DNA of 64,000 nt from Methylophilus sp. (GTDB lineage: Bacteria; Pseudomonadota; Gammaproteobacteria; Burkholderiales; Methylophilaceae): the NCBI RefSeq assembly GCF_008015755.1, contig NZ_SSGF01000011.1, forward strand, positions 41,731 through 105,730, read 5' to 3'. The position numbers and the translations under genes were made by a program. Under the pieces are notes generated by a model, which made no database searches, had not been told where the DNA came from, and saw only the letters and a list, made by a program, of their open reading frames with translations. How positions within the stretch are numbered: position 1 is the first letter of the stretch; each line of letters starts with the position of its first letter. Below, one piece after another: positions 60,045-64,000 of the stretch.

Positions 60045-61232
60045 TTAAGCGTGTGTCAACAACTTCAAATCAGCTTTCAGGTCATCTACATGCTCTAAAC
60101 CAACGGCAATCCTGACCAAGTTATCTTTAATGCCCGCCTCTGCACGAGCTTCAGCGCTCACACGGCTATGCGTGGTCGTTGCCGGATGCGTGATGGTAGA
60201 TTTGGCATCTCCCAGATTAGCCGTGATCGAGATCAGTCGTGTCGCATCAATTAAGGCCCACGCGGCTTCTTGCGCTGTCTGACCCGCTTTTGGTTTCACC
60301 TCAAAAGTCACAATGCCACCACCCAAGCGCTGCTGTTTTTGTGCCAGCCCATACTGCGGATGTGATGGTAAACCCGGGTAATAGACGCGATCAACGCCAG
60401 GCTGTTGTTCTAGCCACTGCGCTAATGCCAGCGCACGTGCTGCATGGGCTTCCATACGCACTTGCAAGGTTTCCAGCCCTTTGACGAATACCCAGGCATT
60501 AAAGGCACTCATGGTGACGCCTGCCGTACGCAAGAAGCCATAGACTGGCTCCATCAAGGCCTTGTTACCAAGTACCGCGCCGCCCAAGACCCGGCCTTGG
60601 CCATCGATATACTTTGTCGCAGAGTGAATCACAATATCTGCACCCAGTTTGAGTGGCTGTTGCAATGCTGGCGTACAAAAGCAATTATCCACCGCCAGGT
60701 AGGCACCTGCGGCATGTGCCACTTCAGCCAATTTGGCGATGTCGCCGACTTCAGTCAGCGGGTTAGACGGGGTTTCTGCAAAAAACAATTTTGTATTGGG
60801 TTTGGCAGCAGCTTTCCATGCTTCCACGTCAGTGAGTGACACCAGGGTCACTTCCAGGCCCCAGCGCTTGAGAATATTGGTAAACAATTGCACGGTGGTG
60901 CCAAAAATACTGCGCGAAGCAACGATATGGTCACCCGCACTACAAAGCCCCATGATGCAGGCTAGAATGGCGGACATGCCGCTCGACGTAGCCACACACT
61001 GCTCGGCGCCTTCCAGCGCTGCCAGCTTATCCTGGAACATGGTCACAGTTGGGTTGGTAAAACGCGAGTAAATATTCCCCGGCTCAGTACCGCCAAAACG
61101 GGCCGCCGCCTGCGCGGCACTGTTAAAGCGAAAGCTGGAATTTAAAAATAAGGCTTCTGAGTTCTCGCCGAATTCGGTAGTTAATGTGCCGGCACGCACC
61201 GCCAGCGTTTCTAAATGATATTGATCGTTCAT
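60045..61232 (-). CDS. metZ: O-succinylhomoserine sulfhydrylase
   Basis: Makes homocysteine directly from O-succinylhomoserine and sulfide. A 395-residue PLP enzyme of the Cys/Met metabolism family. Features are LETLAVRAGTL, YSRFTNPTV, the ATSSGMSAILA loop, AETPSNPLTEVGDI, VDNCFCTPALQQPL and the lysine motif IHSATKYIDGQGRVLGG. The FNSAAQAAARFGG opening is typical of MetZ, as is its place behind purF in betaproteobacteria. GAGG stands 4 nt before the ATG. The 256-nt leader holds a promoter, a SAM-II-like aptamer and a terminator, so expression should fall when S-adenosylmethionine is high. Homology alone could fit a cystathionine gamma-synthase, but the residues and context favour MetZ. Confidence 0.93.
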   Translation of the reverse strand: MNDQYHLETLAVRAGTLTTEFGENSEALFLNSSFRFNSAAQAAARFGGTEPGNIYSRFTNPTVTMFQDKLAALEGAEQCVATSSGMSAILACIMGLCSAGDHIVASRSIFGTTVQLFTNILKRWGLEVTLVSLTDVEAWKAAAKPNTKLFFAETPSNPLTEVGDIAKLAEVAHAAGAYLAVDNCFCTPALQQPLKLGADIVIHSATKYIDGQGRVLGGAVLGNKALMEPVYGFLRTAGVTMSAFNAWVFVKGLETLQVRMEAHAARALALAQWLEQQPGVDRVYYPGLPSHPQYGLAQKQQRLGGGIVTFEVKPKAGQTAQEAAWALIDATRLISITANLGDAKSTITHPATTTHSRVSAEARAEAGIKDNLVRIAVGLEHVDDLKADLKLLTHA

Positions 61233-61308
61233 GATTCCTCAAACTTCCGTCCGCTGCGGACATTCCAGTACAAGCTTCGTGGCTTGCGCTCACCTAGGCT
61301 TGCGCCTT

Positions 61309-61341
61309 GGACAATAAAAACCCGGGACAATAAAAAACCCG
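61309..61341. repeat. Short tandem duplication in the metZ leader
   Basis: GGACAATAAAAACCCG (61309-61324) is directly followed by GGACAATAAAAAACCCG (61325-61341), identical but for one A. The second copy supplies the T tract of the leader terminator. Confidence 0.85.
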
Positions 61342-61365
61342 TTTCAGCATTGCGCTAAAACGGGT
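61332..61365 (-). terminator. Leader terminator (attenuator) of metZ
   Basis: On the minus strand ACCCGTTTTAGC-gcaat-GCTGAAACGGGT with one T-G pair, followed by TTTTTT. It lies 6-10 nt after the SAM-II-like aptamer and 100 nt before the metZ ATG. The TTTAGCG in its 5' arm and loop edge can pair with CGCTAAA of the aptamer, giving a plausible antiterminator. Confidence 0.85.
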
Positions 61366-61370
61366 CTTTG

Positions 61371-61451
61371 GGCTCTCGCTTTAGCGGTATTTATAATGCG
61401 CTCGCAAGCTGAGTTTGGCTTCGTTTAAAGTTCGCCACTCAAATCAGCGCA
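61371..61451 (-). promoter_or_regulatory. SAM-II-type riboswitch aptamer upstream of metZ
   Basis: Minus-strand RNA: P1 UGCGCU pairs with AGCGCA. P1 is followed by GAUUUG and, after a loop, by GCUUGC-G-AGCGCA. Next comes UUAUAAA and, 4 nt on, GCUAAAG. These blocks, in this order and spacing, match the SAM-II pseudoknot consensus as I remember it (GAUUU, CUUGC, UAUAAA-like A/U triplex strand, GCUAAA). The L1 loop is longer than usual and contains an extra possible hairpin (GAGUGGC / GCCaaACUC). The gene behind it, metZ, is a classic SAM-II target. The transcript would start right at P1. Assignment to the related SAM-V class is possible. Confidence 0.82.
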
Positions 61452-61456
61452 ACTTC

Positions 61457-61485
61457 ATTAAACGCCTTTTACAGGCGGCTGTCAA
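61457..61485 (-). promoter_or_regulatory. Sigma-70 promoter of metZ
   Basis: TTGACA (61485-61480), a 17-nt spacer, and TTTAAT (61462-61457). The predicted start is near 61450, the first base pair of the aptamer. The -35 box begins 3 nt after the purF stop codon. Confidence 0.8.
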
Positions 61486-63582: not shown

Positions 63583-64000
63583 TCAGGATTTACTGGCCAC
63601 AATGCCACTAAATCCTGCAGTTTCCAGCTTTTTCAGTGCCGCGGCAGCTTCATTGCGCGTCGCATAGGTGCGCGTGCGCAAGCGTAATTTTTGGCCGGCC
63701 GCATCTACCTTTTCTGTCGCAGTATCAAATCCAGCCTGTTTAAGCTTTCCTTGCAGGTTTTCCAGGTTTTTAGGGTCGGAAAACACGCCAAACTGCACAA
63801 AGAACTTACCAGCTTTTTTATCGGATGCAGCAGGCTGTTCTTTAGCCTCAGGCTTGGCTGCCGCAACTTTGGGTTCAACTTTGGGTTCAACTTTGGGTTC
63901 AACTTTGGGTTCAACTTTGGGTTCAACTTTGGGTTCAACTTTGGGTTCAACTTTGGGTTCAACTTTGGGTTCAACTTTGGGTTCAACTTTGGGTTCAATT
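63583..64000 (-). CDS. SPOR-domain protein, DedD-like (partial, 5' end beyond window)
   Basis: The minus-strand frame is open from the window edge to a stop at 63583. The C-terminus is a SPOR domain (FFVQFGVFSDPKNLENL, RLRTRTYATRNEAAAAL, GIVASKS), which binds denuded peptidoglycan at division septa. Before it is a linker (AAAKPEAKEQPAASDKKAGK) and at least ten KVEP repeats encoded by identical 12-nt units. In related bacteria the gene between folC and cvpA encodes a DedD-like protein with an N-terminal membrane helix, which would lie beyond this window. The ORF at 63705-63998 in another frame is only a shadow of the repeats. Confidence 0.88.
   Translation of the reverse strand, partial: IEPKVEPKVEPKVEPKVEPKVEPKVEPKVEPKVEPKVEPKVEPKVAAAKPEAKEQPAASDKKAGKFFVQFGVFSDPKNLENLQGKLKQAGFDTATEKVDAAGQKLRLRTRTYATRNEAAAALKKLETAGFSGIVASKS
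63871..64000. repeat. Tandem 12-bp repeat encoding KVEP
   Basis: The unit GGGTTCAACTTT occurs ten times without a mismatch from 63871 to 63990. An eleventh, partly visible copy (gggttcaatt) differs at one base and is cut by the window end. In the SPOR-domain frame each unit reads Lys-Val-Glu-Pro. A unit change would keep the frame. Confidence 0.95.

Follow-up and report, generated by a model that had tools for sequence, protein, structure and literature searches.

How is metZ controlled in Methylophilus, a methanol-using bacterium, and what kind of RNA does its leader encode? In the window (the whole 64,000-nt stretch of DNA analyzed), purF and metZ both lie on the minus strand with the leader between them and the metZ start at 61232, as read directly from the sequence and with curated protein models. 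The earlier note had proposed that a compact unit of promoter, SAM-II aptamer, and terminator controls metZ, and its choice of target gene is borne out by two protein model matches; MetZ shares 95-97% identity with several Methylophilus proteins in our metZ search, which yielded 80 loci, and this identity places the window in Methylophilus or a near relative. The interpretation as a SAM-II riboswitch of metZ is very probably correct, and we hold with high confidence that the leader is a transcriptional OFF switch of a beta/gamma type with an inserted hairpin. The features are as follows.

60045..61232, minus strand: metZ, O-succinylhomoserine sulfhydrylase (NCBIfam NF006003, 689.9 bits, cut-off 522; TIGR01325, 588.2 bits, cut-off 510)
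61235..61240, minus strand: Shine-Dalgarno-like GAGGAA of metZ, seen in the sequence about 90 nt 3' of the terminator
61332..61365, minus strand: 12-bp intrinsic terminator with a U6 tract (fold, -22.6 kcal/mol)
61353..61362, minus strand: putative antiterminator partner CGUUUUAGCG, mostly within the terminator 5' arm (arm near-invariant; forms first in prefix folding)
61377..61386, minus strand: putative switching strand CGCUAAAGCG, with GC(U)AA in P2b (SAM state) or the whole strand paired with the terminator 5' arm
61375..61450, minus strand: SAM-II-type aptamer with P1, GAUUUG third strand, inserted hairpin, P2b/P2a pseudoknot, and AUAAAU (model R2, 42.1 bits; model R1, 75.1 bits, circular; RF00521, 19.6 bits)
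61411..61440, minus strand: inserted hairpin GAGU-GGC...GCC-AA-ACUC, typical of Methylophilaceae (a hairpin is still predicted although inserts differ in sequence, length, and stem)
61457..61485, minus strand: sigma-70-like promoter TTGACA-17-TTTAAT, seen in the sequence, 6 nt from the -10 box to P1
61489..63024, minus strand: purF, the gene upstream of the leader (TIGR01134, 544.4 bits, cut-off 350)

The promoter boxes on the minus strand (TTGACA at 61485-61480, a 17-nt spacer, and TTTAAT at 61462-61457) stand near P1 as the earlier note described, and a like promoter recurs in relatives with nearly constant spacing to P1 (mostly 6-9 nt) and scores above those of shuffles. A generic promoter and terminator scan of the window flagged neither the promoter nor the terminator of the metZ leader, the promoter being missed because the scan requires an A at position 2, which TTTAAT does not have. 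The SAM-II sequence blocks named in the earlier note are likewise present on this strand: P1 is formed by GCGCU (61450-61446) and AGCGC (61402-61398); the core blocks are GAUUUG (61445-61440), AGCUUGC (61410-61404), and AUAAAU (61394-61389); and the aptamer ends in the 3' segment GCUAAAGCGAG (61385-61375), so that GAUUUG, UUGC, an A-rich L3, and GCUAAA are all found in the leader. Because promoter, aptamer, and terminator are kept as a whole unit in relatives and an independent model matches it, a chance origin of the unit is excluded. Elsewhere in the window, an ORF at its end carries a run of EPKV repeats (about 63860-64000, minus strand).

An Rfam scan of the window at gathering thresholds reported no RNA family. 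At permissive settings RF00521 (SAM_alpha) gave 19.6 bits on the leader against a gathering score of 36, which is a model threshold and not a structural feature; RF01726 gave 14.9 bits against 44, and the SAM-V model RF01826 gave no match at E<=10. Genome-wide, the leader was the second-best RF00521 match (E 0.054); the best, C5:38861-38938 with 20.2 bits, falls within an ORF and was judged a chance match. By itself the RF00521 result is not significant. The Rfam search that the earlier note had suggested would thus have appeared negative on the leader itself; SAM-II membership is supported through relatives and R2. We built R2 because the score of R1, a covariance model from beta/gamma leaders that include the window, is circular for this locus. 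R2 is based on an alignment (A2) of 22 leaders, 12 compact ones of the same class and 10 out-of-class ones (presumed alphaproteobacterial), all above the RF00521 gathering score and none from Methylophilaceae. On the 2.75-Mb genome the metZ leader was the only significant R2 match (E 6e-7; next place, 16 bits); R2 also matched the leaders of other Methylophilaceae tested, and the window aligns to the same model. Reciprocally, R1 matched 10 of 10 same-order loci that RF00521 recognizes (47-74 bits) and 30 of 30 high-scoring out-of-class loci, presumed alphaproteobacterial (16-37 bits).

Covariation, which the earlier note had also suggested examining in relatives, was found in P1 and P2a of the 22 Rfam-positive leaders (28 double-change cells versus 12.8 in shuffles), with compensatory pairs CG/UA and CG/GC in P1 and CG/UA and AU/GC in P2a. 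In the same alignment 92.2% of cells were paired and four pairs had double changes, far above slid controls; GAUUUG, UUGC, and GCUAAA were invariant, as was P2b, which is therefore uninformative for covariation. Among 33 viral contigs preselected for the core DNA pattern, R2 matched none, and that scan gave no hint of phage-borne copies; since none scores with R2, these pattern matches are attributed to chance and double as a specificity control.

The low RF00521 score is explained by the inserted hairpin, which lies inside the P1 loop between the GAUUUG third strand and the P2 5' strand: compact relatives, in which it is absent and only 6-9 nt separate GAUUU from GCUUGC, score about 29-52 bits with RF00521, versus about 20 bits for the Methylophilaceae forms listed in that scan. 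The Methylophilaceae form has GAG...CUC spanning 15 to about 45 nt, which usually folds as a hairpin, with stems that differ among relatives (for example, GGC/GCC, GAUC/GGUC, and GCC/GGC). Pair counting restricted to the hairpin-form alignment (A1) is weak, since most of its columns, including an invariant GCUAAAG, never vary; inserts were then folded singly, giving folding z-scores that were strongly negative for some and weak for others. The CUC at 61413-61411 can pair either with GAG at 61440-61438, closing the hairpin, or with GAG at 61377-61375, forming P2a, and because CUC is shared in this way, the hairpin would compete with the SAM-bound fold. We raise as a tentative suggestion from these predicted folds that the Methylophilaceae form may be a tuned SAM-II subtype in which such competition shifts SAM affinity or folding speed.

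The 12-bp terminator and T tract reported in the earlier note are confirmed (minus-strand arms ACCCGUUUUAGC at 61365-61354 and GCUGAAACGGGU at 61348-61337; U6 tract at 61337-61332), and a terminator lies 3' of the aptamer in nearly all relatives. As a separate observation, the terminator tail is doubled at 61341-61309 (minus strand), where CGGGTTTTTTATTGTCC is directly followed by CGGGTTTTTATTGTCC, an arrangement not seen in the relatives displayed for comparison. The aptamer strand GCUAAAGCG is complementary to CGUUUUAGC in the terminator 5' arm; this complementarity, already noted as CGCUAAA/UUUAGCG, is real and longer than described, with CGCUAAAGCG (61386-61377) and CGUUUUAGCG (61362-61353) forming 10 pairs, one of them G.U. 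Among 37 distinct Methylophilaceae terminators, the summed pairwise difference was 0.26 for the seven 5'-arm bases that follow CCCG and 2.90 for the seven 3'-arm bases that precede CGGG, and none of 2000 arm-swap permutations reached such a difference, in a test that ignores phylogeny. Where A-to-G changes occur in the 5' arm, its pairing with GCUAAA is kept through G.U. An invariant 5' arm with a drifting 3' arm supports an antiterminator, since a terminator alone would favor neither arm, whereas a need to pair with GCUAAA, itself invariant, would favor one. The mean energy of the antiterminator duplex was -6.4 kcal/mol, compared with -2.9 kcal/mol for shuffled arms.

In prefix folding, P1 and the hairpin formed first, the CGCUAAAGCG/CGUUUUAGCG helix appeared at 104-116 nt (-29.5 kcal/mol), and the terminator took over from 120 nt; when the switching strand was blocked, as a stand-in for SAM-bound P2, the antiterminator was lost and the terminator remained. 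The terminator/antiterminator logic of the earlier note thus survives on the constraint of the 5' arm and on both kinds of folding. At full length the terminator was 9.5 kcal/mol better than the antiterminator, in nested folding that cannot score the pseudoknot, and read-through must therefore be kinetic. In some metX leaders of the order, UUUAGC is missing from the terminator arms, so an antiterminator of the CGCUAAAGCG/CGUUUUAGCG type does not extend to every member of the class.

One criterion of the SAM-II class is binding of SAM with more than 1000-fold discrimination against SAH. The class relationship of the leader, its conserved promoter and terminator, its gene context, and the antiterminator complementarity with its constraint are established here by computation; SAM as the ligand, the direction and size of the response, and its kinetics we infer. 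Transcription would start at P1 or immediately before it. In the SAM-bound fold, GCUAAA would be tied up with UUGC as P2b, and GAG with CUC as P2a; this would leave the terminator 5' arm available to its 3' arm, and RNA polymerase would stop about 100 nt before metZ. At low SAM, CGCUAAAGCG would pair with CGUUUUAGCG once the latter emerges, delaying the terminator and allowing read-through.

Two other readings appear about equally improbable to us. The leader could be a SAM-II relative that kept the fold with a changed ligand (e.g., SAH or methionine) or lost its ligand dependence, in line with its low Rfam score and with the cataloguing of the beta element apart from SAM_alpha by Leyn et al. 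2014 (PMC4239095); however, the score follows the insert, and GAUUUG, UUGC, and GCUAAA are identical to those of high-scoring SAM-II loci. Alternatively, the hairpin before metZ could be a plain terminator, serving as the end of purF transcription or as constitutive attenuation with an inoperative antiterminator. The purF end just upstream and the much greater stability of the terminator at full length would suit this, but the 5' arm is constrained far more than its own partner requires, and in relatives a promoter lies between purF and the terminator.

Readings that replace the class or the strand fare worse still. It is very improbable that the element is a small RNA of the RF02424 (Bp2_287) type from the opposite strand: although RF02424 matches that strand, weakly here (13.8 bits) and better in relatives, the promoter, the order of the aptamer, and the U tract are all as expected for the metZ strand, and the source paper of RF02424 itself suggests that a cis-acting element lies ahead of methionine genes (PMC3521395). 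Least credible of all is SAM-V in place of SAM-II. The cores of the two superimpose (PMC6061858), but RF01826 found nothing at E<=10, L3 with only about 11 nt cannot accommodate the P3 stem that SAM-V has after P1, and a terminator platform is present where that of SAM-V is translational. The assignment of the earlier note, SAM-II with SAM-V as its alternative, accordingly holds, and the transcriptional SAM-II riboswitch remains our preferred reading.

SAM-II was defined in 2005 (Corbino et al., PMC1273637) as an element that has a promoter immediately ahead of P1, is frequently followed by a terminator, and occurs mostly in alphaproteobacteria with a few others; a 2007 paper (PMC2258182) noted that regulatory terminators accompany SAM-II in both alpha- and beta-proteobacteria. 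The Methylophilus leader resembles that RF00521/metA element (PMC1273637) in its P1 and P2 pseudoknot, its GAUUUG/UUGC/GCUAAA core, the promoter just before P1, and the terminator between P2 and the methionine gene; it differs in the hairpin in the P1 loop, a short P2a, a score below gathering, and a host that is not alphaproteobacterial. By description it shares gene name and class with the metZ riboswitch of Sinorhizobium meliloti, an alphaproteobacterium unlike Methylophilus, in which SAM is predicted to cause termination and a metZ leader RNA of about 100 nt is more abundant at high SAM (PMC9373788). It shares a SAM-II core and an enlarged loop with SAM-II long loops (RF01726), which unlike it are of Bacteroidetes/marine origin (PMC2864571). 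RF02424 (Bp2_Cand287_SIPHT), from Burkholderia near purF, metZ, or metX, is apparently the same genomic element, although modeled as an sRNA of the opposite strand (PMC3521395). Its matches opposite the leader (61332-61452, plus strand, in the window, and at L017, L020, L026, L041, L059, and L191-L193) all score below gathering, and the family has the look of the beta SAM-II leader read from its reverse strand.

The element itself is not new. In Leyn et al. 2014 (PMC4239095), SAM_alpha is placed only in Rhizobiales and Rhodobacterales, and a metXZ RNA element of unassigned class is described in beta-proteobacteria upstream of metX or metZ, preceding metZ in three Methylophilales; six conserved regions are listed, with 1/4 and 2/6 pairing as a pseudoknot, and a terminator/antiterminator is proposed. 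We equate the metZ-leader element with metXZ because position, taxa, and description, which are the basis of the identification, agree: both are beta-proteobacterial, upstream of metX/metZ, and followed by a terminator, and regions 1/4 and 2/6 are compatible with P1 and P2. Whereas that study treats metXZ as distinct from SAM_alpha, without ligand or class, our results indicate, within the limits of its description, that metXZ is SAM-II, and they define the antiterminator strands. A full-text literature search for metXZ with riboswitch returned nothing beyond Leyn et al. 2014. What is added here is the SAM-II assignment, the hairpin variant, and an estimate of how many copies Rfam misses; the metXZ element, without a ligand in 2014, gains a probable one, and a mode of metZ control in methylotrophs is suggested. 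The riboswitch is ordinary in mechanism, and its value lies in the assignment.

The unit lies upstream of metZ in Methylophilaceae and many Gallionellaceae-type genomes. R1 matched in 135 of 150 Methylophilaceae genomes, usually once per genome. Across 274 genomes of the class, R1 matched in 135, RF00521 at E<=0.001 in 88, and RF00521 at its gathering score in 24; the Rfam model thus leaves most beta/gamma copies under its cut-off, and the statement in the earlier note that SAM-II is mostly alphaproteobacterial does not hold for this common beta/gamma form. At the best 30 loci the downstream gene, where its sequence was present, was metZ; elsewhere metX, metK, and metF occur besides mostly metZ, in both cases by inspection of translations.

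Some copies depart from this pattern. In g106, a small-genome genus of Methylophilaceae, the metZ leader of one genome (L157:657-728) has no terminator, and a Shine-Dalgarno-like site (GCUAAACUGAGGAA) abuts the aptamer directly on its 3' side, about 20 nt before the ATG; for these reasons control there is probably translational. Another g106 genome (L160) keeps the terminator. An orphan copy before a small ORF (L161:721-810) lacks AUAAAU, keeps GCUAAAGCG and the terminator arm CUGCUUUAGC, and is possibly decayed. At L088:1501-2994, a metK-like gene is preceded by a SAM-II leader, and about 1.4 kb further downstream comes an SAH riboswitch (RF01057, 61.2 bits), which would place sensors for both methyl-cycle metabolites within one locus. 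Tandem SAM-II is already known from 44 cases (PMC9481103), and we saw SAM-II-like pairs at L159:2328-2483, L162, L166:665-900, L186, L187, and L189-L193, the first copy having a terminator and the second lying about 50-110 nt further on; at L159 and L166 the second copy runs into the ribosome-binding site. The nearest ORFs of these pairs, so far as identified, encode an HD_4 domain, a MoxR-type AAA ATPase, or a histone-deacetylase-like protein and are not methionine genes. One genome, G816, has 10 R1 matches.
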